A stretch of 64,000 nucleotides of DNA, taken from positions 806,001-870,000 of the forward strand of contig NZ_PJNE01000001.1 of NCBI RefSeq assembly GCF_002846495.1. Direction: 5' to 3'. The notes below the pieces were generated by a model, which ran no database searches, was not told where the DNA came from, and was given only the letters and a program-made list of their open reading frames with translations. The position numbers were made by a program, and so were the translations under genes. Positions 43,835 to 56,037 of the stretch are shown piece by piece (positions within the stretch are counted from its first letter, which is position 1; every line of letters begins with the position of its first letter). Origin of the DNA: Phycicoccus duodecadis. Lineage in GTDB: Bacteria; Actinomycetota; Actinomycetes; Actinomycetales; Dermatophilaceae.

Positions 43835-43882
43835 GAACGTGTGTGAAGAACGTCGGGATGCCGACACTCTTCACACACGTTC
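43835..43882. repeat. Long palindromic hairpin, repeat copy 1, terminator of the catabolic operon
   Basis: Arms 43835-43856 and 43861-43882 pair over 22 bases with two mismatches and a GATG loop. It lies 22 bases after the stop of the dehydrogenase at 43904. The core GTGTGTGAAGAACGTC is identical to the second copy at 55982-56037. Confidence 0.8.
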
Positions 43883-43903: not shown

Positions 43904-44947
43904 CTACCGCTCCAGGCGGGCGACCACGGCCGCCCCGACCTCCTCGGTGGACGCCGTGCCGCCGAGGTCGCGGGTCCGCACCCCGTCGGCGGTGACGGCC
44001 TCGAAGGCCTCCTGGAGGGCCGTGGCCGCGGCGGCGAACCCCAGGTGCTCCAGCATCATCGCCCCGGTCCAGATCTGACCGACCGGGTTGGCGACGCCCT
44101 GCCCGGCGATGTCGGGCGCCGAGCCGTGCACCGGCTCGAAGAGCGAGGGGTGGGCGCGCTCGGGGTTGAGGTTCGCACTCGGCGCCAGCCCGATCGAGCC
44201 GGCCACCGCCCCGGCGAGGTCGGAGAGGATGTCGCCGAACAGGTTCGAGGCCACCACGACGTCGAGCGAGGCGGGCCGGAGCACCAGGCGGGCGGCCAGG
44301 GCGTCGATGAGCACGCTGTCGAGGCGCAGCTCCTCGTGCTCGGCGACGACCTCACCGACGACCTCGTCCCAGAACGGCATCGTGTGGATGATGCCGTTGG
44401 ACTTGGTCGCCGACGTCAGCGTCCCCCCGCGGGAGGCCGCGAGCCGGGCCGCGTAGCGGGCGACCCGCTGGATGCCGTACCGGGTGAACAGGTCGACCTG
44501 GATGGCCGACTCGCGGTCGCGGTGGCGGAAGGCCCGGCCGCCGATCTCGGAGTACTCGCCCTCGGTGTTCTCGCGCACGATGACGACGTCGATGGCGTCG
44601 CCCCCGCGCACCGGGCTCGGCACGCCCGCGAGCGCCTTGACCGGGCGCAGGTTCACGTACTGGTCGAACTCGCGGCGGATCGGGATCAGCAGGCCCCACA
44701 GCGTCTCGGTGTCGGGGATGTCGGGCATCCCGACCGCCCCCAGGAACACGGCGTCGTGGCGGGCCAGGGTCTCGAGGCCGTCGAGCGGCATCATCCGGCC
44801 CGTGCGGTGGTAGTGGTCTGACCCCCAGGGCAGGTCGACCCACTCGATGCGCTCGCCCTCGCGGGCCAGGGCGGCGTCCACGCAGGCGATCCCGACCGGG
44901 ACGACCTCCTGCCCGATGCCGTCGCCCGCGATGACGGCGACGCTCAC
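43904..44947 (-). CDS. Tartrate/D-malate-type decarboxylating dehydrogenase
   Basis: 347 residues of the isopropylmalate dehydrogenase superfamily, distinct from LeuB at 5489. Start VAVIAGDGIGQEVVPVG, then LRPVKALAGVPSP, VIVRENTEGEYSEIGGR, the TKSNGIIHTMPFWDEV segment typical of tartrate dehydrogenases, and the end [15 protein letters not shown]. It would oxidise a 2-hydroxy dicarboxylate such as D-malate or tartrate with NAD+. The GTG at 44947 overlaps the upstream stop (GTGA); GTG 44950 is also possible. Last gene of the eight-gene operon. Confidence 0.88.
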   Translation of the reverse strand: MSVAVIAGDGIGQEVVPVGIACVDAALAREGERIEWVDLPWGSDHYHRTGRMMPLDGLETLARHDAVFLGAVGMPDIPDTETLWGLLIPIRREFDQYVNLRPVKALAGVPSPVRGGDAIDVVIVRENTEGEYSEIGGRAFRHRDRESAIQVDLFTRYGIQRVARYAARLAASRGGTLTSATKSNGIIHTMPFWDEVVGEVVAEHEELRLDSVLIDALAARLVLRPASLDVVVASNLFGDILSDLAGAVAGSIGLAPSANLNPERAHPSLFEPVHGSAPDIAGQGVANPVGQIWTGAMMLEHLGFAAAATALQEAFEAVTADGVRTRDLGGTASTEEVGAAVVARLER

Positions 44948-45966
44948 CACGACGAGCCGTTCGGCAGCACGAGCACCTTGTCGACGCGACCGTCGGCCTG
45001 GGCCGCGAGCGCGTCGTGGACCTCGTCGAGGCCGAAGGTGCCGAGGTGGAGCTGGTCGAGCCCGAGGGTGTTCACGAGGTCGGCGGCGCGCCGGTGCGTG
45101 AACGGGTTGAGCGCCGTCCCGAGGACGGAGAGCTCCTTGGCGTAGATCTCGTTGGGGCTCACCTCCCAGCGGTCACCGGGGCGGGCCACCCCGAACACCA
45201 GGATGGTGGCGCCGCGGGCCGCCACGGCGGTCGCCTGGGCCAGCACCTTCGAGGAGCCCACCGCGTCGACCACGTACCGGAAGCCGTCACCTCGGGTCAG
45301 CTCGGCCATGGTGTCGGCGAAGCCGGCGTCGGTCGGGTCCAGGGCCACGTCGGCGCCCATCCGCAGCGCCAGGTCGCGACGCTGCTCGCGCATCTCGACG
45401 GCCACCACGGTCGACATCCCGGCCCGGCGCAGGAGCGAGATCAGCAGCGCCCCGGCCGGCCCCACCCCGAAGACGGCGGCGCTCGAGCCCGAGACCGGGG
45501 CCAGCCGGTCGATGCCGTGGACGGCACAGGCGAGGGGCTCGACGAGCGCGCCGAGGAGGGGCGGGGTGGCCGGGTCGAGGCGGTAGGCCAGGGTCTCGGG
45601 CACCACCATCCGCTCGGCCATCCCGCCGGGCAGGTGCACCCCGGGCGCCTGGCGCTCCGGGCAGAGGTGCGGACGCCCGGACTGGCAGTGGACGCACACG
45701 CCGCAGTAGATGTGCGGCTCGACCGTGACGAGGTCGCCCGGGCGCACGGAGCGCGTGGCGGCTCCCACCTCCAGGACGCGGGCGCACACCTCGTGGCCCA
45801 GGGTGATCGGCGGCCGGCTCGTGTAGTCGCCCTCGATGATGTGCTGGTCGGTGCCGCAGACCCCGACCGCGAGGGGCTCCAGCAGCACGTCCGCCGGGCC
45901 GGGCTCGGGGATGGGCAGCTCGACGACCTCGACGGTGTGGTCACCGACGTACTGGACGGCCTTCAT
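44944..45966 (-). CDS. Zinc-dependent medium-chain dehydrogenase (polyol/threonine dehydrogenase-like)
   Basis: 340 residues. Catalytic zinc ligands Cys-37 and His-58/Glu-59 (GVCGTDQHIIEGD, TLGHEV); structural zinc cysteines at 88, 91, 94 and 102. Rossmann part GVGPAGALLISLLRRAGMSTVVAVEM near 167-190. It is similar in pattern to sorbitol, idonate and threonine dehydrogenases and probably oxidises a sugar alcohol or an aldonate. ATG 45966, 19 bases after the SDR stop. Substrate not known. Confidence 0.88.
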   Translation of the reverse strand: MKAVQYVGDHTVEVVELPIPEPGPADVLLEPLAVGVCGTDQHIIEGDYTSRPPITLGHEVCARVLEVGAATRSVRPGDLVTVEPHIYCGVCVHCQSGRPHLCPERQAPGVHLPGGMAERMVVPETLAYRLDPATPPLLGALVEPLACAVHGIDRLAPVSGSSAAVFGVGPAGALLISLLRRAGMSTVVAVEMREQRRDLALRMGADVALDPTDAGFADTMAELTRGDGFRYVVDAVGSSKVLAQATAVAARGATILVFGVARPGDRWEVSPNEIYAKELSVLGTALNPFTHRRAADLVNTLGLDQLHLGTFGLDEVHDALAAQADGRVDKVLVLPNGSSW

Positions 45967-45985
45967 GGGGGTTCCTCGTGTTCTC

Positions 45986-47095
45986 TCAGGGGATGATGCG
46001 CTCGGACCGCAGGTTCGCGAACCAGTGGCGGAAGGTGATCTCGGTGTCGACGCAGTCGACGAAGCCCGCCTGACGCAGCTTCACCGTGCTGAGCAGCACC
46101 GGCCGGGCGCGGCTGGCGAGCTCGGACCCCGGCGGGGCCCAGGCGAAGGCGTCGTCGGCGAACCGGTGCGAGTACCCGACCAGCTGCTCCACCGTGTGCG
46201 CGCGCAGGTGGTGGCGCTGCACGACCCGCTGCCAGACCTCCTCCTGCTCGGGCAGCCAGGCGGCCAGGGACAGCGGCTCGTCGGGCCCGGGATCGACCCC
46301 CAGGGCGTCCGCGAGCGCCGGCCAGAGGTCGCGCCACTCGAAGACGTCGCCGTTGGTGATGTTGAAGGTCTCGTCCCGGGCGGCGGGTGCCTCCGCGGCC
46401 CAGTGCAGGGCCGACGCCAGCAGCCGCGCATCGACGCCCTCGGCGACGTACGACGGGCCGCCCGGGAACGAGAACGGCTCCCCGCGCTCGTGGCGCACCG
46501 CGGCGTAGCACGCGATCACCGGCACCAGGTTCATCGCCGCCCCGAGCACCCCGCCCAGGATGAACTGGGGGCGCCACACGGTGTGGCCGAAGCCCTGCTC
46601 GGCCGCGGCCTCGCGCAGGAGGTCCTCCTGCGCCCAGTAGAAGTTGTCGTGCTCGACGCGGGGCCGGGACTCCTTGGCCGGCACCCGCATCGGGCCCACG
46701 TGGTACGCGTAGGCCTTCGTGCCCTGCATCAGCGACACGTGCCGCAGCGGCGCCCCCGCCGCGCGGAGCCCCGCCAGGACGTTCGCCAGCATCGCCCGGT
46801 TGGTGGCGATCTGCTCGGCGTCCTGCCACCCCGCGACGAGGTCGGGCTGCTCGTACAGGGCCGCGTAGACGACGTGGGTGACCGGACCCGCCTCCGCCAG
46901 GGCCTCGGCCACCGCGCCGGAGTCGCGCAGGTCGACCGCCACGTGGTGGTGGCGCTCGGTCTCGGGCAGCCGCGGGTCGCGCCGCGACACGGTCACCACG
47001 TCGTAGCGCTCGTCCGCCACGAACCGACGGGCGGCGGCGTTGCCGGCGACCCCGGTGGCACCCAGCACGAGCACGCGGTCACGCACGACGGCCAC
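45986..47095 (-). CDS. PRISE-type atypical SDR (iridoid synthase / progesterone 5-beta-reductase-like)
   Basis: 369 residues. The NADP motif is VLVLGATGVAGNAAARRF, and the family's own motifs are seen: SLMQGTKAYAYHVGP, ESRPRVEHDNFYWAQEDLL with the active-site Tyr, and WRPQFILGG. PRISE enzymes reduce activated C=C bonds or epimerise; bacterial members are little studied. In this operon it may reduce an enone or handle a keto-sugar. GTG 47095 is used; no better in-frame start is seen. The gap to the aldolase stop is 63 bases. Confidence 0.8.
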   Translation of the reverse strand: MAVVRDRVLVLGATGVAGNAAARRFVADERYDVVTVSRRDPRLPETERHHHVAVDLRDSGAVAEALAEAGPVTHVVYAALYEQPDLVAGWQDAEQIATNRAMLANVLAGLRAAGAPLRHVSLMQGTKAYAYHVGPMRVPAKESRPRVEHDNFYWAQEDLLREAAAEQGFGHTVWRPQFILGGVLGAAMNLVPVIACYAAVRHERGEPFSFPGGPSYVAEGVDARLLASALHWAAEAPAARDETFNITNGDVFEWRDLWPALADALGVDPGPDEPLSLAAWLPEQEEVWQRVVQRHHLRAHTVEQLVGYSHRFADDAFAWAPPGSELASRARPVLLSTVKLRQAGFVDCVDTEITFRHWFANLRSERIIP

Positions 47096-47158
47096 CGCTC
47101 GCGGCGGACCGCCGGTCGGCGCGGACCGGGCCCGTGCCGACGACCTCCGGGCCGTCGG

Positions 47159-48001
47159 TCATCCGGCGGCCATCCTCCGCAGCCGCGCGGCGGACACCGT
47201 CCGCAGGAAGTCCGCCGGGTCGGCGGCGGTCACGGCGTCGGCCCAGATGGCGCGCCCGGCCAGGAAGCCGTCGGCCCCTCCGGCCTCGCACGCCTGCACC
47301 GCGGCCGGGAAGTCGTCGGCGGTGACGCCCGACGACAGGACCACCCACGGGCAGTCGAGCACGGCGGTGACCCGGGCGGCCACGGCGGTGATGCCCGCGA
47401 GGTCGCCGCGCCCGTAGGACGGGACCTCACCCTTGTAGAGGTCGGGGGCGACCCCGCCGAGGTCGCGAGCGGCGGTGACGATGGCCTCGTCGCGGTCGGC
47501 GTCGGACCAGTCGGCGATGTCCGCCGGGCGCACGACGCCCTCGACGATGCCAGGCAGCCCCGCCGCCCGGCAGAGCTCCATGAACCGCGCGGACAGGTCG
47601 ACCGCCGCGTCCCGCGTCTCGGGCGTCCAGGGCACCAGCTGCTTCAGGGCCGCCGCGCGGTACTCCCGCGCGACGTCCGCCGTCACCTCGAGGTCCAGCT
47701 CGGCGCTGTCGACCGGCCCCCCGGGCACCGAGGAGCTCAGCACGTCGGCGGCCAGGATGACCGGGCAGCCGGCGGCCAGGGCGGCCTCGTGGCCGTAGTC
47801 GCGGTCGACCAGCATGGCGCTGGCGTGGCCGGAGAGGCTGCGGGCCACCTCGACCTTGAACGCCACGAGCTGCTCGTCGCTCACCCGCCCGGGATCCTCA
47901 CCCTGGGCGAGCATGGTCCGCAGCGAGCCACGCTGGTCGATGGCGAGCATCGAGAACCGTCCGCGGGGGTCGCGGAGGTCGTCGATCGACGTGCTGGGCA
48001 T
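47159..48001 (-). CDS. Class I aldolase, LacD/YihT family
   Basis: 280 residues, beta/alpha barrel. Features: SMLAIDQRGSLRTML at 18-31, FKVEVARSLSGHASAMLVDRDYG, IVEGVV near 152, and the Schiff-base lysine in APDLYKGEVPSY (Lys-190). Family members split tagatose 1,6-bisphosphate or 6-deoxy-6-sulfofructose 1-phosphate into dihydroxyacetone phosphate and an aldehyde. With the PfkB kinase and aldehyde dehydrogenase across the divide this gives a kinase-aldolase-oxidase route. ATG 48001 has AGGGA six bases upstream. Confidence 0.85.
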   Translation of the reverse strand: MPSTSIDDLRDPRGRFSMLAIDQRGSLRTMLAQGEDPGRVSDEQLVAFKVEVARSLSGHASAMLVDRDYGHEAALAAGCPVILAADVLSSSVPGGPVDSAELDLEVTADVAREYRAAALKQLVPWTPETRDAAVDLSARFMELCRAAGLPGIVEGVVRPADIADWSDADRDEAIVTAARDLGGVAPDLYKGEVPSYGRGDLAGITAVAARVTAVLDCPWVVLSSGVTADDFPAAVQACEAGGADGFLAGRAIWADAVTAADPADFLRTVSAARLRRMAAG

Positions 48002-48017
48002 GGGGGTCCCTTCGGGG

Positions 48018-48986
48018 TCAGCGGATGACGACGGGGTTGACGGGGGCGCCACTGGCGCCCTCGACCTTCAGCGGTGCTGCGGTGTACAGGAAGGACCAGC
48101 GACCGTCGGCGGCACAGGCCGCGGCGAGGTCGTCGAGCCAGCAGATCTCGGTGAACGCGACCCCGAGGTTGCGCATCAGGGCGCAGTGCAGGGCCATCTC
48201 GATCCCGGTCTCGGGGTCGACGCTGCGTTCGTTGGCGATGGTGTCGGTCACCAGGTTCGGGATCTCCATGGCCTGGAACCACTCGACGAGCTCGGGGCTG
48301 TAGATGAGGCCGGGCTCGTTGAAGTCGGTGTAGAACTCGGCCCGCGGCATCCGGTAGTACGACCCGATCCAGCCGGTGCGCACCAGGATGACGTCGCGCG
48401 GGCGGATCTCGACGCCCTGCCGCTCGGCCGCCTCGAGGAGGTCGAGGTGGGTGAAGGACTCGGCCCGTTCCAGGACCTCCTTGCCACGGTGGCGCGCCAT
48501 GTCGATGAGCACGCCGCGGCCGACGACACCCCGCTGGGCGATGGGCATCACCGAGGCACGCGAGAGGCTGCCGATGGTGGTGCTGGCGTCGTAGCCGTTC
48601 CAGATCAGACCGTCGTACCAGAGGTGCCCGAGCGCGTCGTACTGCGTCGAGCCCTGCAGGAACATGTCGATCCGGTCGTCGGCCCAGCGGTGGCCGTCGG
48701 CCGGCACCTCCGGGGCCTCTCCGCGCTGGAAGAACCCCTCGTCCATCACGGGCGTGCGGACCGCGGAGGTGCGGTTGGGCCACACCGGGTCGCCTTCGAC
48801 GTCCGGGGACCCGATCGGCACCTGGAGGGTGAACACCTCGCCGGTGACGACGCTCCCGACGCCGCGCAGCACCTCGTCGGCGGTCAGGTAGTTGAGGCTG
48901 CCGACCTCGTCGTCGGGCCCCCACTTGCCCCAGTTGCTGGGCGGGGTGGGGCCGAGGAGGTCGGAGATCGTGCGTGGCTGGTCCAT
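48018..48986 (-). CDS. Cyclase-family protein (kynurenine formamidase-like)
   Basis: 322 residues, PF04199-type metal hydrolase fold. The metal motif of the family, HxGTHxDxPxH, appears as QGSTQYDALGHLWYDG near 110-125, with Gln replacing the middle His as in some actinobacterial members. It might open a lactone or hydrolyse an amide. ATG 48986. In an operon with sugar-type transport, a lactonase role is plausible; this is inference. Confidence 0.82.
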   Translation of the reverse strand: MDQPRTISDLLGPTPPSNWGKWGPDDEVGSLNYLTADEVLRGVGSVVTGEVFTLQVPIGSPDVEGDPVWPNRTSAVRTPVMDEGFFQRGEAPEVPADGHRWADDRIDMFLQGSTQYDALGHLWYDGLIWNGYDASTTIGSLSRASVMPIAQRGVVGRGVLIDMARHRGKEVLERAESFTHLDLLEAAERQGVEIRPRDVILVRTGWIGSYYRMPRAEFYTDFNEPGLIYSPELVEWFQAMEIPNLVTDTIANERSVDPETGIEMALHCALMRNLGVAFTEICWLDDLAAACAADGRWSFLYTAAPLKVEGASGAPVNPVVIR

Positions 48987-49013
48987 GGTCGTCCTTCCGG
49001 TCGGTGGGTGGGC

Positions 49014-50036
49014 TCAGGCGGAGCGGCTGAGCTTGCGGGCCACGGTGCTGAACGACACGGCGGCGATCAGGACCAGGCCCTGGAAGAGGAACTGCACGTA
49101 CGACGGGACACCGGCCAGGGCCAGCCCGTTGAACCCCGTCGAGACGGTGACCACGCCGACGAGCGTGCCGACGATGTGGAACTGCCCCTCACGCAGGACG
49201 GCCGTCCCGAGGAAGGCCGCGGCGAAGGCGCTGAGGGTGTAGCCGTCGCCGCCGGTGGGCTGCCCACTGCCGACCACCGAGGCGAGCAGGATGCCGGTGA
49301 CGGACGCGCAGACCGAGCAGATGACGAAGGCTGCGCCGGTGACCCCGCCGACGCCGACGCCGGCCAGCCGGGCCGCCTCGGCGTTGCCGCCCACCGCCTG
49401 GATGTTGCGCCCGAGGTCGGTGCGGTTCAGGACGAGCCAGAGCAGCACGACGACGACCACCATGTAGTAGACGTTGCGCGGGATGCCGAACCAGGTGCCG
49501 ACCGAGATCTCCGAGAAGCCCGGCATCACCGAACCGAAGGGTTGGGCCGCACCGCCGCTGATGAAGTAGTTGGCGCCGACGGCCACGCTCCCGACCCCCA
49601 GCGTCGCGACCAGCGCGTTGACGCCGAGGCGAGTGACCAGCAGCGAGTTGACGACGCCGATGACCACGCTGGTGACCAGCGCGACCAGGATCGCCAGCGG
49701 GATCGAGAACCCGTTGATCATCAGGTAGGCGACCAGCACCCCCGACAGGCTCGCGACGTTGCCGATGCTGAGGTCGAACTGGTTGGCGGCCAGCACCATC
49801 GTCAGCCCGCACGCGATGATCGCGGCGAGCGCCGACTGGTTGAAGATCTGGACGATGTTGCCGTAGGTGAGGAAGTACTGGGGCGAGATGACGGTGAACA
49901 CCACCACCAGCAGCCCGAGCACGATGAGGGCGCCGAACTTCCCGATGAAGAGCGTCACCGACTGGCCCAGCGTGCGCGACGGGGTCACGACGGTGTCGGT
50001 CGGGGTGTTCGCGGGGGCGGGAGCGGGGGCGGTCAT
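49014..50036 (-). CDS. Sugar ABC transporter permease (RbsC family)
   Basis: 340 residues, about ten hydrophobic helices. The loop segment MVLAANQFDLSIGNVASLSG is the typical RbsC-family cytoplasmic signature (Asp-Leu-Ser-Ile-Gly). Residues 1-25 are a Pro/Ala/Thr-rich cytoplasmic tail. It forms the membrane channel of an importer with the ATPase upstream and the lipoprotein at 51647. ATG 50036 overlaps the ATPase stop (ATGA). Confidence 0.92.
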   Translation of the reverse strand: MTAPAPAPANTPTDTVVTPSRTLGQSVTLFIGKFGALIVLGLLVVVFTVISPQYFLTYGNIVQIFNQSALAAIIACGLTMVLAANQFDLSIGNVASLSGVLVAYLMINGFSIPLAILVALVTSVVIGVVNSLLVTRLGVNALVATLGVGSVAVGANYFISGGAAQPFGSVMPGFSEISVGTWFGIPRNVYYMVVVVVLLWLVLNRTDLGRNIQAVGGNAEAARLAGVGVGGVTGAAFVICSVCASVTGILLASVVGSGQPTGGDGYTLSAFAAAFLGTAVLREGQFHIVGTLVGVVTVSTGFNGLALAGVPSYVQFLFQGLVLIAAVSFSTVARKLSRSA

Positions 50037-51607
50037 CGGGGGTCCTCCTGGGATCCGGTGCTGGCGTGGGTGTGCTCGTAGATGACGGAGAGCATCTGCT
50101 CCTCGGTCACGCCGGGGCCGACGAGCTCGGCGACGGTGCGGCCCTCGACCATGACCGCGACGCGGTGGCAGACCGAGAGCTCCTCGAGCTCCGAGCTCAC
50201 GACGACCACGCCGTTGCCCGCGGCCGCGAAGTCCTCGGCCGTCTGCCAGATCTGTTGTCGGGCACCGATGTCGACGCCACGGGTGGGCTCGTCGAGCAGC
50301 AGGAGCCGGGAGTCGCGCGCGAGCCAGCGCGCGAAGACGACCTTCTGCTGGTTGCCGCCCGAGAGCTTGCGGACCTCGGTGCGGGTGTCGCCGGCCTTGA
50401 TGGCGAGGGAGTCCTTCATCCCCACGGCCACGGCCTGGGCCCGGCGGTCGCTGACGAACGGCAGCGCCTTCACCGCGCGCATCGACCGCCAGTTGCCGAG
50501 GGTGATGTTCGAGCGGATGGAGTCCTCCATGACCAGCGCCTGGGAGCGCCGCTCCTCGGGGACCAGGGCCACGCCCTGGCGGATGGCCGCGCGCACCCCG
50601 TGCGGCTGGTACGGCTCGCCGCCGAGCTCCATGCGGCCGGCGACGGGGCGGCGGTCGCCGAACACCAGCGACAAAGTCTCGCTGCGGCCCGCCCCGACGA
50701 CGCCGGCGAGGCCGACGATCTCACCCTCGCGGACCTCGAAGGACACGTCGCGCACCAGGGAGCCGTCGGCCAGGTGCTCGGCCCGTAGCAGGACGCCGGC
50801 GTCGGCGGCGACCGGGGCCAGCGAGCGCCGCAGCTCCAGCCCCTGCTCCTGCCCGGTGATGCCGCGGATGAGCTCGGCGCGCCCGTAGCCGCCGCGCTCG
50901 AAGCGGCCGGTGACCTGGCCGTCCTTGAACACGGTGACCCGGTCGCTGAGCTCCTCGATCTCGTTGAGGCGGTGGCTCACGTAGGCCACGCTCACCCCGT
51001 CGCGGGCGAGGTCGCGCACGATGCGGAACAGCCGCTGGCACTCGACGTCCGAGAGCGCGGCCGTCGGCTCGTCCATCGCGATGAAGCGGGCGTCGCGCGC
51101 CAGCGCCCGCCCGATGGCGACGAGACCGCGCTCGGCCGGGCTCAGCTGGCGCACCGGGCGCCGCAGGTTGAAGCCCATCCCGAGGCGCTCGGCGATCTCG
51201 CGGCTGACCCGGGCCCGCTCGCGCCGGCTGCCGACGCCGAAGCGGGAGGTGCCCCGCAGGCCGAGCGTCATGTTGTCGACGGCCGAGAAGTCGGGGACCA
51301 GGGCCAGCTCCTGGTGGATGAACGCGAAGCCGAGGGCGTCGGCCTCACGGGGGCCGCCGATCTCGGCCTCCTGCCCGTCGACCAGGACCACCCCGCCGGA
51401 GGGGCTGAGCGCCCCGGCGAGGACGTTGAGCAGGGTGGACTTGCCGGCGCCGTTGGCACCGACGAGCCCGTGGACCTCACCCCCCCGGAACTGCACCGAG
51501 ACCTCGCGCAGAGCCTGGACGGCTCCGAACGACTTGCTGACGGACCGTGCCTCGATGAGGGGAACCTCGGGGCGGGAGGGCGGCTCGGGCACGGTCACAT
51601 CGGTCAT
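50033..51607 (-). CDS. Sugar ABC transporter ATP-binding protein (RbsA family, double domain)
   Basis: 524 residues with two ATPase domains. First: Walker A GANGAGKST near 52, signature variant LSPAERGLVAIGRAL, Walker B FIAMDEPTAAL. Second: degenerate P-loop GVVGAGRSE near 295, signature LSGGNQQKVVFARWL near 415 and LLLLDEPTRGVDIG. This layout is that of RbsA/MglA importers of ribose-, xylose- or galactose-like sugars, also autoinducer-2 and polyols. ATG 51607; 39 bases after the binding-protein stop. Confidence 0.93.
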   Translation of the reverse strand: MTDVTVPEPPSRPEVPLIEARSVSKSFGAVQALREVSVQFRGGEVHGLVGANGAGKSTLLNVLAGALSPSGGVVLVDGQEAEIGGPREADALGFAFIHQELALVPDFSAVDNMTLGLRGTSRFGVGSRRERARVSREIAERLGMGFNLRRPVRQLSPAERGLVAIGRALARDARFIAMDEPTAALSDVECQRLFRIVRDLARDGVSVAYVSHRLNEIEELSDRVTVFKDGQVTGRFERGGYGRAELIRGITGQEQGLELRRSLAPVAADAGVLLRAEHLADGSLVRDVSFEVREGEIVGLAGVVGAGRSETLSLVFGDRRPVAGRMELGGEPYQPHGVRAAIRQGVALVPEERRSQALVMEDSIRSNITLGNWRSMRAVKALPFVSDRRAQAVAVGMKDSLAIKAGDTRTEVRKLSGGNQQKVVFARWLARDSRLLLLDEPTRGVDIGARQQIWQTAEDFAAAGNGVVVVSSELEELSVCHRVAVMVEGRTVAELVGPGVTEEQMLSVIYEHTHASTGSQEDPR

Positions 51608-51646
51608 GGGTACAGCTCCGGGGGGGCTCGGTCGGTCGGGAGTCGG

Positions 51647-52633
51647 TCAGTTCAGGAAGTTGGGGTGGTCCTTCAGGAACTGGTCGATGTTGTCCTTGGT
51701 CAGGATGGTGTTCTCGGCGGGCACGCCCTTGGCCTGCTTGGTCGAGAGGTAGTCCTTGACCAGACCGGCCACCTGCGCGCCGACCTTGGTGCCGTCCAGG
51801 CTCAGCGTCGCCGCGATCTCGCCACTCTTGAGCGGCTCGAGGATGGTCTTGTTGAAGTCCCAGGTGTAGATCGGGATGTCACTGCGACCGGCCTGCTTGA
51901 TGGCCGCCACGGCGCCCGCCGAGGGGTCGGTGAAGCACGACCAGATGGCCAGCTTGCCCGAGCCCGCGGGGTGGGCGGCGAGCCAGGCGGCGGTGGCGTT
52001 CTGGGCGTCGACGACCTGGCCCGGGATCGGGAACTCGTGCTTGGAGACCTTCACCGAGGTGCCCTTGAGCTGCTCGTCGCGGTACTCCTTGCGGATCCGG
52101 CACGGCGTCCCCGGCGTGTAGTCGAGGGTGAGCACGTCGGTGACCTGCTGGTCCTTGACGTAGGTGACGAAGAGGTCGTTGATGGGCTTGGGCGAGGTGA
52201 CGTCGACCGCGCCGGCCATCCCGTCGAGCAGCGGGCTGCCGATGTAGAAGACCGGGATGTTGGCCGCCTTGGCCTGCGACATGCACTGCGACATCTGGTC
52301 CAGGGCGAAGGTGGTGACCACGATGGCCTTGACCTGGCGGGTCACGTACTGGGTGCAGATGGTGTTCGCCTGGCCGGGGTCGCCCTTCGGGTCCTGGCTC
52401 AGGACCTCCCAGCCCGCCTTCTCGAGGGCGCTGCGGGCGCCCACGACGAACTGGGCGTCGATGGCGGAGGTGGTGTCGAACTCGACGATGCCGGCGGTGC
52501 CGGCCGCGGCCCCACCGGAGCCCGAGGCCCCGGACGTAGCGCCGTCACCGGCGCCGCACGCCGAGACGGAGAGGGCCAGACCGAGCGCGAGGAGACCGGC
52601 GGCGTTCGCCCGGCCCCACATGAATCGGGACAT
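51647..52633 (-). CDS. Sugar ABC transporter substrate-binding lipoprotein
   Basis: 328 residues. Lipoprotein signal with lipobox VSAC, lipidated Cys-26, then a Gly/Ser-rich linker and a type I periplasmic-binding fold (IVEFDTTSAIDAQFVVGARSA, KAIVVTTFALDQMSQCMS, IPIYTWDFNKTI). It captures the substrate outside the cell for the RbsA/RbsC-type pair. ATG 52633 has GGAG seven bases upstream. First gene of the eight-gene operon; its promoter faces that of the GntR gene. Confidence 0.92.
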   Translation of the reverse strand: MSRFMWGRANAAGLLALGLALSVSACGAGDGATSGASGSGGAAAGTAGIVEFDTTSAIDAQFVVGARSALEKAGWEVLSQDPKGDPGQANTICTQYVTRQVKAIVVTTFALDQMSQCMSQAKAANIPVFYIGSPLLDGMAGAVDVTSPKPINDLFVTYVKDQQVTDVLTLDYTPGTPCRIRKEYRDEQLKGTSVKVSKHEFPIPGQVVDAQNATAAWLAAHPAGSGKLAIWSCFTDPSAGAVAAIKQAGRSDIPIYTWDFNKTILEPLKSGEIAATLSLDGTKVGAQVAGLVKDYLSTKQAKGVPAENTILTKDNIDQFLKDHPNFLN

Positions 52634-52657
52634 GTACTACTCCACTTCATTGTAGAA

Positions 52658-52679
52658 AGCGCGAACGTTCTTCGACGCT
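52658..52679. promoter_or_regulatory. Palindromic element in the 5' UTR of the binding-protein gene
   Basis: GAACGTTC (52663-52670) is a perfect eight-base palindrome within the wider imperfect AGCG...CGCT arms (52658-52679), between the promoter and the ATG. Possible second operator. Confidence 0.35.
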
Positions 52680-52706
52680 GTGCCCCTGACCTCCGGGGTA
52701 GGGCTG

Positions 52707-52736
52707 AGGCTAGGGCCGACACTTACAGGATGTCAA
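52707..52736 (-). promoter_or_regulatory. Promoter of the catabolic operon
   Basis: Minus strand: perfect TTGACA (52736-52731), 18-base spacer, TAGCCT (52712-52707). Confidence 0.6.
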
Positions 52737-52744
52737 CCTATATT
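52716..52744 (+). promoter_or_regulatory. Promoter of the GntR-PfkB-aldehyde dehydrogenase unit
   Basis: Plus strand: CCGACA (52716-52721), 17-base spacer, TATATT (52739-52744). It overlaps the opposing promoter almost completely. TTACAGG occurs at 52723-52729 and 52744-52750, 21 bp apart, as likely regulator sites. Confidence 0.6.
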
Positions 52745-52776
52745 TACAGGCGGACAGGCTGCTAACCTCTGGGCTC

Positions 52777-53580
52777 ATGAACGCATCGTCCGCGCAGGCC
52801 GGGCTGCTCCAGCAGCTGGAGGCCCGGCCGCTCGCGCGCACCGGGGGGACCGCCCTGCACTGGCAGTGCGGTGAGCTGCTCAAGACGCTCATCGACGAGC
52901 TCCACTACCCGCCGGCCGTGCCGCTCCCCCCCGAGAACGACATGGCCCGCGCCCTCGGCATCAGCCGGCCCACCCTGCGCCAGGCCATGGCGCGGCTCGC
53001 CTCCGAAGGCGTCATCCACTCCCAGCGGGGGGTCGGCGCCTTCGCCCTGCGGCCCGGGCTGGTGCGCCCGATGGGTCTGAGCAGCCTCTACCGCGACCTG
53101 CAGAGCGCGCAGCGCAGCCCCACGACCCGGGTCCTCGTGGTCGAGGACACCGTGGCCACCCCCCGCGTCGCCGAGGAGCTGCGCATCCCGGTGGGCACCC
53201 CGCTGCTGCACGTCGAGCGGGTACGCGCGGCCGACGGGGTGCCCGTGGTGCTGACCCGCTCGCTGCTCGCGCTGCCCGACGGTGTCACCCTCACCCCGGC
53301 CCAGCTCGAGAGCGACGGGCTCTACAACCTCCTGCACCGGGTCGCCGGCATCGAGCTCGTGGGCGGCTCGCAGAGCGTCAGTGCGCGGATCGCCACCGCC
53401 GAGGAGTCCGAGCTGCTCGAGATCGAGCCGGGCTCGGCGGTCATGGTCGCCCACCGCGTGGCCTTCGACGCCATCGGCCGCGGCGTCGAGTACGTGCACA
53501 TCATCTACCCCCAGGGCACCGAGCTCATCTCCGACCTGCGCGGGACCTCGGTGCGACCGGCCGTCGACCCACGCCCGTGA
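52777..53580 (+). CDS. GntR-family regulator, HutC/UTRA type
   Basis: 267 residues. Winged helix-turn-helix at about 30-95 (LPPENDMARALGISRPTLRQAMARLASEGVIHSQRGVGAF) and a C-terminal UTRA ligand-binding domain (about 105-255). UTRA domains usually bind a phosphorylated sugar or a catabolic intermediate. It probably controls both the divergent importer operon and its own unit through the TTACAGG repeats. ATG 52777. Confidence 0.9.
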   Translation: MNASSAQAGLLQQLEARPLARTGGTALHWQCGELLKTLIDELHYPPAVPLPPENDMARALGISRPTLRQAMARLASEGVIHSQRGVGAFALRPGLVRPMGLSSLYRDLQSAQRSPTTRVLVVEDTVATPRVAEELRIPVGTPLLHVERVRAADGVPVVLTRSLLALPDGVTLTPAQLESDGLYNLLHRVAGIELVGGSQSVSARIATAEESELLEIEPGSAVMVAHRVAFDAIGRGVEYVHIIYPQGTELISDLRGTSVRPAVDPRP

Positions 53581-53603
53581 CACCACCCCGCGAGGAGCAG
53601 CCC

Positions 53604-53648
53604 GTGCCGACCCAGACCTCCTGTCCCCCGACGCCTCCCCCCGCATGA
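53604..53648 (+). CDS. Possible 14-codon upstream ORF coupled to the PfkB gene
   Basis: GTG 53604 with a good AGGAG site opens MPTQTSCPPTPPPA, whose TGA overlaps the PfkB ATG (ATGA). The PfkB start itself has no ribosome site, so this proline-rich short ORF may carry ribosomes to it. Could also be a decayed N-terminus. Confidence 0.35.
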   Translation: MPTQTSCPPTPPPA

Positions 53649-54559
53649 GCCCGGCCACGGCGCCGGTCGTCTGCGCCGGCACGCTCCTGCTCGACAGCCT
53701 CGCGGTGGTCGACCGGCTGCCGGGTGAGGACCAGCGGGTCCAGAGCACGGCCACCGCCCTGGTGGCGGGCGGCAACGCCGCGAACTCGGCCGTCACCATC
53801 GCCCGGCTCGGGGTCGACGTCGAGTTCGTGGGCGTGGTCGGCGACGACCTCCTGGGCCGGACGGCGCTGGCGGAGCTGGAGGCCGAGGGCGTCGGGACCT
53901 CTGGCGTGCACGTCGACCCGGGGGTGCAGACCTCCACCAGCCTCGTTCTCGTCTGCACGGACACCGGCACCCGCACCATCGTCACCCGCCCCGCACCCCC
54001 TCCCCCGCGGCTGCCCACGGGCCACCCGTGGCTGCACGTCGACGCCTGCGGGTACCTGGCCCTGCAGCGGGCCGGCGGCTCGGCCTCGCTGGTCTCGCTC
54101 GACGACGGCAACCCCGTGCCCGGGCTCGACCTGCGGCTGGTCGACCTGTACGTCCCCACCGTGGCCACCCTCGCCGTCCGCTACCCGGGTCTGGACGCGC
54201 TGGATGCCGCCGCCCGGGCCCGCGCCGACGGGGCCGGCACGGTCGTCGCGACGGCCGGCGCGCAGGGCTCGTTCGCCCTGTCCGACACCGGTACCGCCTT
54301 CGCCCCGGCCGCCGCCGTCGTCCCGGTGAGCACCCTGGGTGCCGGCGACGTCTTCCACGGCGCGCTGCTGGCCGCCCTGGTCCTGGGGCATGACCACGCC
54401 GGCGCCGTGCGCTTCGCCAACGTCACCGCCGCCCTGTCGTGCCTGGCCCTCGACGGCCACTCCGGGGTCCCCGACCGCACCACCGTCGAGGACCACCTCG
54501 CGGCCCTCCCCCCGGGCCCGGCCGACCCCGTCGCCGCCATCCGTGCCCTCCACGCCTGA
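53645..54559 (+). CDS. PfkB-family sugar kinase
   Basis: 304 residues of the ribokinase/PfkB family. Substrate-side motif AGGNAANSAVTIARLG at 41-56 and the ATP/catalytic motif TLGAGDVFHGAL at about 230 with the base Asp. It phosphorylates a sugar, likely the ketose or deoxyketose that the LacD-type aldolase splits. The ATG at 53645 lacks its own ribosome site (see the short upstream ORF). Follows GntR by 64 bases and precedes the aldehyde dehydrogenase by 30. Confidence 0.88.
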   Translation: MSPATAPVVCAGTLLLDSLAVVDRLPGEDQRVQSTATALVAGGNAANSAVTIARLGVDVEFVGVVGDDLLGRTALAELEAEGVGTSGVHVDPGVQTSTSLVLVCTDTGTRTIVTRPAPPPPRLPTGHPWLHVDACGYLALQRAGGSASLVSLDDGNPVPGLDLRLVDLYVPTVATLAVRYPGLDALDAAARARADGAGTVVATAGAQGSFALSDTGTAFAPAAAVVPVSTLGAGDVFHGALLAALVLGHDHAGAVRFANVTAALSCLALDGHSGVPDRTTVEDHLAALPPGPADPVAAIRALHA

Positions 54560-54589
54560 CCGCCCCCACCCCCACGGAAGAGAGACCCC

Positions 54590-55966
54590 ATGCCCATCGC
54601 CACCGTCAACCCGTTCACCGGCGTCACCGAGGAGACCTTCACCGCGCACACCCCCGAGGAGGTGCAGGAGGCCCTAGCCCGCGCCGTGCGGGCCCAGCGC
54701 GACCTGCGCGAGCGCACCTTCGCCGAGCGCGCCGGCTGGCTGCGGCGCGCCGCCGAGCTGCTCGAGGCCGAGGTCGACACCGCGGCCGCGATGATGACGG
54801 TCGAGATGGGCAAGCCCATCGCCCAGTCCGAGGCCGAGGTGCGCAAGTGCGCCAAGGGCATGCGGTTCTACGCCGACCACGCCGAGGCCATGCTCGCCGA
54901 CACCCCGCTGGCGGACGCCTCGGCCGTCGGCGCCGGCGCCGCCTGGACCCGGTGGGAGCCGCTGGGTGTCGTCCTCGCGGTGATGCCCTGGAACTTCCCG
55001 CTGTGGCAGGTGGTGCGCTTCGCCGCCCCCGCGCTCATGGCCGGCAACACGGGCCTGCTCAAGCACGCCTCCAACGTCCCGCGCTCGGCCGTCTACCTCG
55101 AGGACGTGCTGTCCCGGGCCGGCTTCCCCGAGGGCTGCTTCCAGACCCTGCTCATCGGTTCCGACGCGGTCGCGGCCGTCCTCGACGACGAGCGCGTGGT
55201 GGCCGTGACCCTCACCGGCTCCGAGCCGGCCGGCCGCTCGGTGGCCGCGCGCGCCGGCGCCGGCCTCAAGAAGGCCGTCCTCGAGCTCGGCGGCTCCGAC
55301 CCGTTCGTCGTGATGCCGTCGGCCGACCTCGATGCCGCGGTGGCCACCGCCGTGACCAGCCGCACCCTCAACAACGGCCAGTCCTGCGTCTGCGCCAAGC
55401 GGTTCGTCGTGCACACCGACGTCTACGACGACTTCGCCGCCCGGTTCACCGCGCGGATGGCCGCGCTCGTCGTCGGCGACCCGCTCGACCCCGCCACCGA
55501 CATCGGCCCGCTCGCGACCCGCGCCGGGCGCGACGAGCTGGCCGAGCTGGTGCAGGACGCGGTCGACCGGGGCGCCACGGTGCTCACCGGCGGCACCGTC
55601 CCCGAGCGCGACGGCTGGTTCTACGAGCCGACGGTCCTGGCCGACCTCCCCGAGGGCACCCGCCTGGTCATGGAGGAGGCCTTCGGCCCGGTGGCCACGC
55701 TCTACCGCGTGGGCGACCGTGACGAGGCCCTGCGGGTGGCCAACCAGACCAGCTTCGGCCTCTCGAGCTCGGTCTGGACCACCGACGCCGACGAGCAGGA
55801 CTGGTTCACCGCGCGGCTGGAGGCGGGGGCGGTCTTCGTCAACGGGATGACGGCCAGCTTCCCCGAGCTCCCGTTCGGCGGGGTGAAGGCCTCGGGCTAC
55901 GGCCGCGAGCTGGCGGCCGAGGGCATCCGCGAGTTCTGCAACCTCAAGACGGTCTGGCGGGCCTGA
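54590..55966 (+). CDS. Aldehyde dehydrogenase (succinate-semialdehyde dehydrogenase type)
   Basis: 458 residues, the short SSADH/YneI form. Motifs: cofactor region VMPWNFPLWQVVRFAAPALMAGN near 125-148, catalytic Glu in LELGGSDPFVV near 232, catalytic Cys-266 in NNGQSCVCAKRF and LPFGGVKASGYGREL near the end. It oxidises an aldehyde with NAD(P)+. In this cluster the likely substrate is the aldehyde released by the aldolase. ATG 54590 has AGAGAG about six bases upstream. Transcription ends at the long palindrome behind it. Confidence 0.9.
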   Translation: MPIATVNPFTGVTEETFTAHTPEEVQEALARAVRAQRDLRERTFAERAGWLRRAAELLEAEVDTAAAMMTVEMGKPIAQSEAEVRKCAKGMRFYADHAEAMLADTPLADASAVGAGAAWTRWEPLGVVLAVMPWNFPLWQVVRFAAPALMAGNTGLLKHASNVPRSAVYLEDVLSRAGFPEGCFQTLLIGSDAVAAVLDDERVVAVTLTGSEPAGRSVAARAGAGLKKAVLELGGSDPFVVMPSADLDAAVATAVTSRTLNNGQSCVCAKRFVVHTDVYDDFAARFTARMAALVVGDPLDPATDIGPLATRAGRDELAELVQDAVDRGATVLTGGTVPERDGWFYEPTVLADLPEGTRLVMEEAFGPVATLYRVGDRDEALRVANQTSFGLSSSVWTTDADEQDWFTARLEAGAVFVNGMTASFPELPFGGVKASGYGRELAAEGIREFCNLKTVWRA

Positions 55967-55981
55967 GCACACCACCCCCTA

Positions 55982-56037
55982 CCCCGAACGTGTGTGAAGA
56001 ACGTCGATCGGCCGACGTTCTTCACACACGTTCGGGG
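55982..56037. repeat. Long palindromic hairpin, repeat copy 2, bidirectional terminator
   Basis: Perfect 25-bp arms (55982-56006 and 56013-56037) around a six-base loop, between the convergent aldehyde dehydrogenase and etfA genes. Shares the core GTGTGTGAAGAACGTC with the copy at 43835-43882. Confidence 0.85.

Follow-up and report, generated by a model that had tools for sequence, protein, structure and literature searches.

Gene content and organization of the island

The DNA analysed here is a 64,000-nucleotide stretch of Phycicoccus duodecadis (contig NZ_PJNE01000001.1, positions 806,001 to 870,000; hereafter the window), from a genome that consists of a single 3.50-Mb contig. Eleven genes at positions 43904-55966 form an island of about 12 kb that holds an importer, a regulator and a set of catabolic enzymes in two divergent groups. 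On the minus strand, counted from the importer end, the order is substrate-binding lipoprotein (SBP), ATPase, permease, PF04199 hydrolase, aldolase, PRISE-type protein, zinc dehydrogenase (ZnADH) and tartrate-type dehydrogenase (TtDH). On the plus strand it is GntR/UTRA regulator, PfkB kinase and SSADH-type aldehyde dehydrogenase (ALDH). Intergenic gaps range from -4 to 64 b inside each strand group and 143 b separate the two groups, which is an operon-like layout. The genes are listed below with the values for their orthologues in other genera.

43904..44947, minus strand: tartrate/D-malate-type dehydrogenase (TtDH); TIGR02089; orthologues 74-76%
44944..45966, minus strand: zinc polyol/cyclitol-type dehydrogenase (ZnADH); PF08240/PF00107; orthologues 57-65%
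45986..47095, minus strand: PRISE-type reductase/dehydrogenase; PF22917; orthologues 57-63%
47159..48001, minus strand: class I aldolase of the DeoC/LacD/YihT family; PF01791; orthologues 59-66%
48018..48986, minus strand: 'cyclase' family hydrolase; PF04199; orthologues 69-73%
49014..50036, minus strand: CUT2 (RbsC-type) permease; PF02653; orthologues 77-78%
50033..51607, minus strand: CUT2 (RbsA-type) ATPase; open frame of 524 amino acids; orthologues 69-71%
51647..52633, minus strand: CUT2 substrate-binding lipoprotein; PF13407, lipobox by eye; orthologues 65-69%
52777..53580, plus strand: GntR/UTRA transcriptional regulator; PF00392, PF07702; orthologues 65-74% over the full protein
53645..54559, plus strand: PfkB-family kinase (sulfofructose-kinase-like); PF00294; orthologues 57-60%
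54590..55966, plus strand: SSADH-type aldehyde dehydrogenase; NF006915; orthologues 63% and 65%, another ALDH (36%) in Naasia

Ten of the eleven proteins were scanned against Pfam (the ATPase, 50033-51607, was left out), and they matched, above the curated cut-offs, Iso_dh, ADH_N/ADH_zinc_N, Epimerase, PRISE, DeoC/LacD, Cyclase (PF04199), BPD_transp_2, Peripla_BP_4, GntR, UTRA, PfkB and Aldedh. The CUT2 importer is complete, with SBP, permease and an ATPase that is assigned by orthology only. All the genes named in an initial annotation of this stretch are present at the positions it had given.

Judged by score, TtDH is a good member of the tartrate dehydrogenase family. It reaches 484.1 bits against TIGR02089 (TTC tartrate dehydrogenase, cut-off 470.4) and misses a second tartrate dehydrogenase model, NF006048, with 467.4 bits (cut-off 501); its best solved relative is the tartrate dehydrogenase/decarboxylase 3flk (362.8 bits), followed by isopropylmalate dehydrogenase (229.4 bits), and no other metabolic enzyme of the set is as well conserved (74-76%). 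The ALDH passes the NADP-SSADH model NF006915 with 761 bits (cut-off 730). The best NCBIfam model for ZnADH is scyllo-inosose 3-dehydrogenase IolM (191.5 bits, below the cut-off of 450), followed by L-threonine 3-dehydrogenase (186.4 bits), and its best solved relative is a putative dehydrogenase (4ej6). The PfkB kinase has sulfofructose kinase 7ag6 (108.7 bits) as its best solved relative and ribokinase as its best NCBIfam model, with no model reaching its cut-off.

The hydrolase matches PF04199 with 65.5 bits (gathering cut-off 23.1) and no NCBIfam model at E 0.001. Its sole solved relative by sequence, 5ibz, is uncharacterised, and its structure model is poor (mean pLDDT 43.1). The PRISE-type protein matches PF22917 with 33.5 bits (cut-off 27) and progesterone 5-beta-reductase 5mlh with 129.3 bits, with which a lysine (QGTKAY) and a tyrosine (NFYW), presumably the active-site residues, align. 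Both motifs are present in 116 of its 120 listed relatives, and the protein may be either a ring reductase or a dehydrogenase.

A CUT2 importer paralogous to that of the island occurs elsewhere in the host genome (1485000-1503000, L125 in our collection of loci), with an SBP at 34%, an ATPase at 48%, a permease at 50% and a LacI-like regulator. Neither its neighbours nor those of a paralogous importer in Nonomuraea (L028) gave a clue to the substrate.

Acquisition of the island

The island lies between a cysteine-desulfurase gene and etfA, which are 12.2 kb apart in the window. In all five congeners examined these two flanking genes are adjacent, about 142 to 964 b apart, and the island genes found no match (E 1e-20) in the desulfurase-etfA stretches fetched from them; two DeoR matches in one congener stretch belong to regulators of the Naasia cluster described below, not of the island. 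A PRISE search of 58 relatives gave, among 11 congeners, three matches below 30 bits and eight genomes without match. The island, which is absent from the congeners examined, was thus horizontally gained by this genome, a point that goes beyond the initial annotation.

Further searches covered genome samples drawn from larger groups. When these were searched with a window-type aldolase alignment, 18 genomes passed the set thresholds in the order (396 searched), 6 in the class (394 searched) and 6 in another family of that order (398 searched). The host stood out with 489 bits, as did two members of the other family (493 and 477 bits), one of them the Naasia record L020; the remainder stayed below 290 bits. 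A wider aldolase alignment was passed by one of 338 genomes in the order of a Pseudonocardia, Nakamurella flavida (404.7 bits), and at E 1e-30 the binding protein had a match in the host and in a single further genome, at 33%, among the 396 of the order.

Base composition gave no signal of foreign origin: the GC content is 0.731 in the island and 0.746 and 0.736 in the flanks, and at third codon positions both the island genes and the flanking genes lie at 0.95-0.99. The congeners are the only evidence for the insertion. A hairpin repeat, TGTGTGAAGAACGTCG and its complement, stands on either side of the island:

43840..43877, no strand: left hairpin repeat, an imperfect palindrome, predicted -43.9 kcal/mol, bounding the island
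55991..56028, no strand: right hairpin repeat, a near-perfect palindrome, predicted -50.6 kcal/mol

With at most one mismatch, the half-site has 22 matches in the genome and the reversed pattern has none. The short form of the repeat was not seen in the etfA-desulfurase gaps of the congeners, one of which (G004) has a different hairpin there. The repeats may be terminator-like or may be linked to the insertion.

Conservation of the gene set in other genera

The neighbourhood search proposed in the initial annotation bore out conservation of the set. Clustered orthologues of all eleven island genes were found in Amnibacterium flavum (L147, L148; 57-77%) and in Nakamurella flavida (L164; 60-78%), and of ten of the eleven in a Naasia metagenome-assembled genome (L020; 57-77%), in which the ALDH differs. 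The first two genomes were identified by their aldolases, which are identical to database proteins or include them in full, and by their PRISE proteins, which include the named ones except for the first five residues. These and the following counts leave most of the 158 loci collected unused.

As a proxy for co-occurrence in one genome, we compared the sizes of the longest contigs between the best 120 matches each for PRISE, aldolase and hydrolase. Equal sizes were found 19, 19 and 18 times for the three pairs, and 17, 15 (host included) and 13 times above 6 kb; five sizes were common to all three lists. In 80 controls, with sizes shifted by 1-40 b either way, the means were 0.9-1.1 and the maxima 3-4. 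A few of the shortest coincidences (1791 and 1638 b) must be due to chance, being too short for both genes. Microcella daejeonensis has PRISE and hydrolase on equal-sized contigs. The island gene set is more than a chance assembly, and the island is a real, conserved and gained catabolic cluster.

Actinobacteria and one alphaproteobacterium also have a wider type of cluster that contains part of the set: PfkB, a YihT-like aldolase, a tartrate-type dehydrogenase, ALDH and, in most cases, a DeoR regulator. A unit of PfkB, aldolase, DeoR, tartrate-type dehydrogenase and ALDH is present in L126, L127, L152, L156 and L157, and one of ZnADH, ALDH, tartrate dehydrogenase, aldolase and kinase on a Cereibacter sphaeroides plasmid (L160) and in L129. 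These wider clusters use other importers, which the initial annotation had not noted: CUT1 genes were recognised by eye in L126, L129, L152, L156 and L157 and are annotated in L160. This cluster type may account for the tartrate-type enzyme of the island.

A distinct aldolase clade associated with the hydrolase and IolC

The aldolase has sulfofructose-phosphate aldolase YihT (7ag1, 182.5 bits) as its best solved relative. All four expected catalytic residues, Asp22, Lys120, Glu154 and Lys190, are invariant in 20 aligned rows, and Lys190 aligns with Lys193 of YihT (counted by eye); from LacD we assume a Schiff-base lysine with Asp, Lys and Glu as its partners. A 41-row tree places the window, Rhodococcus, Gordonia, Mycolicibacterium and Streptomyces types together in a clade of 19 rows (support 100/99). 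The 22 rows outside it include YihT, an Arthrobacter cluster with TauE, the Cereibacter cluster and the tartrate-type-dehydrogenase clusters with other importers. A motif, ALKxL(V/L)PWxP, is present in all 19 aldolases of the clade. The corresponding stretch, readable in 17 of the 22 outside rows, has W or Y followed by R in 16 and W followed by H in one (L152); the pattern found nothing in the other five (L123, L128, L133, L134, L135). Among 120 listed aldolase matches, which do not include the host's own record, the PW motif occurs in 107 and the W/Y-R/H form in 18, counts in which the patterns can overlap.

The neighbourhood could be seen for five of the 19 clade aldolases (the window, Naasia, A. 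flavum, N. flavida and a Rhodococcus erythropolis plasmid), and the hydrolase is in the cluster in all five. It lies 16 b from the aldolase in the window, 48 b in Naasia, 1.9 kb in N. flavida and 3.6 kb in A. flavum, and overlaps it in Rhodococcus. The initial annotation had treated the hydrolase as an addition to the route, which this association does not bear out. In four of these five hydrolase-linked clusters (all except the window), a gene for IolC, 5-dehydro-2-deoxygluconate kinase, stands directly downstream of the aldolase. The IolC copies are 60-67% like that of Naasia, and the two scored against TIGR04382 (cut-off 300) reached 358.5 and 345.4 bits. IolC acts on a 5-keto hexonate, and NF047869 is, we assume, a family in which a LacD-like aldolase is fused to IolC. 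The constant company of the hydrolase and the frequent one of IolC suggest that the aldolase route handles a keto acid from the opening of a ring or lactone, not a plain ketose. An aldolase of this kind was found in none of 12 actinobacterial genomes holding PRISE, in a search made without positive control.

Each of the three orthologous clusters has IolC in addition to PfkB, making two kinases. IolC lies between aldolase and PRISE in A. flavum and N. flavida; in the window these two genes are separated by 63 b, and the host cluster must therefore either have lost IolC or never have possessed it. The A. flavum and N. flavida clusters also hold a short-chain dehydrogenase/reductase (SDR), an amidohydrolase and a psicose 3-epimerase/IolO-like protein (114.5-121.9 and about 101 bits, cut-offs 300), and a dehydrogenase resembling fructuronate reductase is present in Naasia and A. 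flavum. The Rhodococcus plasmid cluster contains the hydrolase (72%), the aldolase (49%), IolC, two Gfo/Idh/MocA oxidoreductases, one of them nearest levoglucosan dehydrogenase (316.9 bits, cut-off 650), and an IolE-like protein (88.1 bits, cut-off 290). IolD and IolB are not listed in the 24.8 kb read of this plasmid, for which the PLSDB gene tables are incomplete.

A second PfkB/aldolase pair is present in the host genome at 1287000-1305000 (L123), together with a fucose-isomerase-like protein, an SDR, a RhaD-like fusion, DeoR regulators and a CUT1 importer; all these families except kinase and aldolase were assigned by eye.

The hydrolase and PRISE in other loci

The hydrolase also occurs apart from the aldolase. 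Among the best 80 of the listed PRISE matches from named genomes, ten loci contain a hydrolase above 200 bits. Seven of these ten have an AMP-dependent ligase of at least 559 bits (L061 supplied the query), two have weaker or contig-cut ligases (233 and 227 bits), and Naasia has a match of 117 bits only. The hydrolases in L039, L044, L060, L061, L067, L072, L078 and L177-L179, all near an AMP-dependent ligase, are 60-65% like that of the window, and PRISE is also present in the seven of them numbered below L100, from diverse bacteria. We also examined four of 166 matching plasmid records. The hydrolase adjoins an AMP-binding/adenylate-forming protein in those of Rhodococcus pyridinivorans, Blastomonas and Tsukamurella, and no such adjoining protein was found in that of Corynebacterium stationis. 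A ligase near the hydrolase would be expected if the hydrolase makes a free acid, and the simplest reading of these loci is that the hydrolase produces the acid and the ligase then takes it up. These loci possibly carry out ring opening followed by CoA activation.

A candidate ring-opening route and its alternatives

We infer the substrate, the reactions and their order from gene families and gene company, and the best-supported mechanism, which we favour tentatively and with somewhat less than even confidence, is a cyclitol-type route in which the ring is oxidised, the hydrolase opens it, and the keto acid is phosphorylated and split to dihydroxyacetone phosphate (DHAP). The CUT2 importer would take up a small compound with several hydroxyl groups, a cyclitol or a close derivative being most likely. 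ZnADH and PRISE would convert the ring, by oxidation or some other adjustment, into a cyclic 1,3-diketone, which the hydrolase would open by retro-Claisen C-C hydrolysis to an open-chain keto acid (HOCH2-CO-...-COOH). The PfkB kinase, or possibly IolC in the relatives, would phosphorylate the carbon beside the ketone, and the class I aldolase would split the product into DHAP and a short aldehyde acid. ALDH would oxidise the latter, and the tartrate-type dehydrogenase might oxidise or decarboxylate the resulting dicarboxylic acid, the least certain step.

This route is favoured because IolC adjoins the aldolase in the relatives and because a cyclase-family enzyme opens a cyclic 1,3-diketone. 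By our own chemical argument, if the carbon flanked by the two ketones of a 1,3-dione bears a hydroxyl, hydrolysis would yield HOCH2-CO-...-COOH, a compound of the kind that IolC phosphorylates. According to PMC10470551, dihydrophloroglucinol cyclohydrolase, a member of the cyclase family, opens a cyclic 1,3-dione to 5-oxo-hexanoate and retains the conserved metal site. A Thermotoga route via diketo-inositol and 5-keto-L-gluconate is named in PMC5931981. Further points in favour are IolM as the best, though sub-threshold, model for ZnADH, the IolE-like and Gfo/Idh/MocA proteins of the Rhodococcus plasmid, the epimerase/IolO-like protein of A. flavum and N. flavida, and the ligases found near the hydrolase elsewhere.

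Several observations weigh against the cyclitol-type route. The motif HxxxHxD, which we take to be the metal motif of metal-dependent PF04199 members, is absent from the hydrolase subfamily in all 120 listed relatives; 108 of them have QG[S/T]TQxDxxxH, with Gln where that motif has His, and the chemistry may therefore differ from that of the Mn-dependent enzyme. A strong ligase (above 400 bits) also occurs in four of the 70 PRISE loci lacking the hydrolase, one of which (L031) has a hydrolase fragment at the contig edge, so the ligase is not hydrolase-specific. ZnADH and the IolE-like and IolO-like proteins all score below curated cut-offs, with ZnADH nearly as close to threonine dehydrogenase. 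Neither IolC nor the epimerase, IolE-like and Gfo/Idh/MocA genes of the relatives had a match in the 64-kb window (for IolC, among open frames of at least 100 amino acids); the remaining genome was not searched for them. For the SBP, whose model is good (pLDDT 85.1, best fold match 5hsg), the fold search returned generic CUT2 sugar binders only, and CUT2 importers carry plain sugars too. Finally, a C6 cyclitol would give a three-carbon aldehyde acid, for which there is no obvious use of the strongly conserved TtDH, which is why the last step is the least certain. A C7 substrate is a possibility, since it would yield a four-carbon semialdehyde that suits both the SSADH-type and the tartrate/malate-type enzymes.

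Next in rank, and rather unlikely in our view, is a sugar acid or lactone route, in which an aldose would be oxidised to a lactone by PRISE or ZnADH, the hydrolase would act as lactonase, ZnADH would oxidise C5 of the aldonate, and the 5-keto aldonate, once phosphorylated, would be cleaved into DHAP plus an aldehyde acid. IolC of the relatives acts on a ketose with a terminal acid group, which agrees with such an intermediate, as do the RspB- and idonate-dehydrogenase-type enzymes among the ZnADH matches and the MtlDH protein of Naasia, nearest fructuronate reductase (389.3 bits, cut-off 603). YihV and YihT, the nearest kinase and aldolase relatives, are likewise understood to act on ketoses with a terminal acid group (in part from PMC8873060), and L-glucose catabolism makes 5-keto-L-gluconate from L-gluconate, as stated in PMC12632266. 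However, the hydrolase also accompanies PRISE and a CoA-type ligase in clusters that are not for sugars, and the Rhodococcus cluster has IolE-like and Gfo/Idh/MocA genes, though Gfo/Idh/MocA enzymes also oxidise sugars. We know of no lactonase activity in this hydrolase subfamily, which also counts against the lactone route.

The initial annotation had proposed that a polyol is oxidised to a ketose by ZnADH, phosphorylated to the ketose 1-phosphate by PfkB and cleaved to DHAP and a hydroxyaldehyde, which ALDH oxidises to an acid, with the tartrate-type enzyme acting on the acid and hydrolase and PRISE as accessories. The importer and the PfkB-aldolase-ALDH core leading to DHAP and an oxidised aldehyde are supported, the best solved relatives of kinase and aldolase being sulfofructose kinase and sulfofructose-phosphate aldolase, whereas the simple entry from alcohol to ketose is not supported as proposed. 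The same functions do form units without hydrolase or PRISE (the Cereibacter sphaeroides plasmid and L129; L126, L127, L152, L156 and L157), but the aldolases of those units fall outside the window clade, and hydrolase and PRISE are retained in four genera and are unlikely to be bystanders; we regard that complete route as improbable. Still less probable is a reading with two partly separate pathways for related substrates, one using the hydrolase and the aldolase and the other the kinase, the tartrate-type enzyme and ALDH, behind a common importer and regulator. Other genomes do have one module without the other, and IolC and PfkB are both present in each of the three orthologous clusters, but the window has one aldolase and one kinase in one compact island. 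A sulfosugar variant, in which sulfolactaldehyde (SLA) would be oxidised to sulfolactate, is highly improbable. It would agree with the best solved relatives of kinase and aldolase, and with the GabD-type ALDH of the Arthrobacter pathway described in PMC8873060. We down-weighted it on the aldolase tree, in which YihT lies outside the 19-row clade and the TauE-bearing Arthrobacter plasmid cluster sides with YihT, and on the missing YihS and TauE: no YihS-family isomerase is among the ten island proteins scanned, and the island has no TauE exporter.

Comparison with known systems

By single enzymes the nearest known pathway is the sulfo-Embden-Meyerhof-Parnas (sulfo-EMP) pathway, and by logic it is inositol catabolism. 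According to PMC8873060, the actinobacterial sulfo-EMP pathway of Arthrobacter (YihS, YihV, YihT and SLA dehydrogenase) shares with the island a PfkB kinase, a YihT-family class I aldolase, a GabD/SSADH-type ALDH and an ABC importer. The island differs by lacking YihS and TauE, by its tartrate-type dehydrogenase, hydrolase, PRISE and ZnADH, and by the other clade of its aldolase. A PfkB, aldolase, SSADH and TauE set like that of the Arthrobacter sulfo-EMP cluster is carried by pYA7-1a (L161), a plasmid of Arthrobacter sp. YA7-1 typed as conjugative, where it adjoins a galactonate-dehydratase-type operon.

With the inositol pathway of Thermotoga maritima, in which IolM reportedly makes a diketone that IolN hydrolyses (the enzymes are said to be named IolG, M, N and O), the island shares an IolM-like dehydrogenase and a hydrolase expected to open a diketo ring, and two orthologous clusters have an IolO-like epimerase. 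In contrast, ZnADH is below the IolM cut-off, the hydrolase lacks an NCBIfam match at E 0.001, and the island continues via a kinase and a DHAP aldolase. The canonical myo-inositol pathway proceeds through IolG, E, D, B, C, J and A. It has in common with the relatives IolC beside the aldolase, and with the island DHAP as product (PMC9603128); it differs in its IolD, IolB and IolC, none of which is among the ten island proteins scanned (the remaining genome was not searched for IolD and IolB), the island aldolase is of LacD type, and the island lacks the enzymes with which that pathway isomerises and opens the ring.

The dihydrophloroglucinol cyclohydrolase pathway of Clostridium scatologenes resembles the island in having a cyclase-family hydrolase in a catabolic cluster with a reductase; its substrate class and neighbours are different and its metal site is conserved, as described in PMC10470551. 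The hydrolase/AMP-ligase/PRISE clusters of Pseudonocardia, other actinobacteria and proteobacteria share the hydrolase (59-65%) and PRISE (46-52%) in nine of ten loci, whereas their acid is presumably activated by the ligase and not by a kinase, and the loci show no match to a window-type aldolase.

The initial annotation had supposed that the substrate may be new. The set is conserved and no known pathway was found to match it by close orthology, sulfo-EMP, the nearest, having aldolases of another clade; these findings therefore leave that suggestion standing. In the open-licence literature searched, no paper describing this gene set was found.

Implications of a possible ring-opening catabolism

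We consider it possible, though short of probable, that the island represents a second, IolD-independent mode of opening cyclitol rings in aerobic actinobacteria. A cyclase-family retro-Claisen hydrolase would convert a diketo-cyclitol directly to the keto acid, a kinase of IolC or YihV type and an aldolase of LacD/YihT type would carry it on to DHAP, and the PRISE and tartrate-type dehydrogenases would extend the route to another substrate. The source annotations name relatives of the aldolase 'sulfofructosephosphate aldolase' and those of the hydrolase 'kynurenine formamidase', names that look over-annotated, and the former may mislead counts of sulfosugar degraders. If the ring-opening route is true, many proteins named 'cyclase family' or 'kynurenine formamidase' would be carbon-ring-opening hydrolases in sugar-type catabolism, the pathway would be testable in Amnibacterium flavum and Nakamurella flavida, and there would be a rule for deciding whether a YihT-like aldolase belongs to a sulfosugar pathway or to this one.

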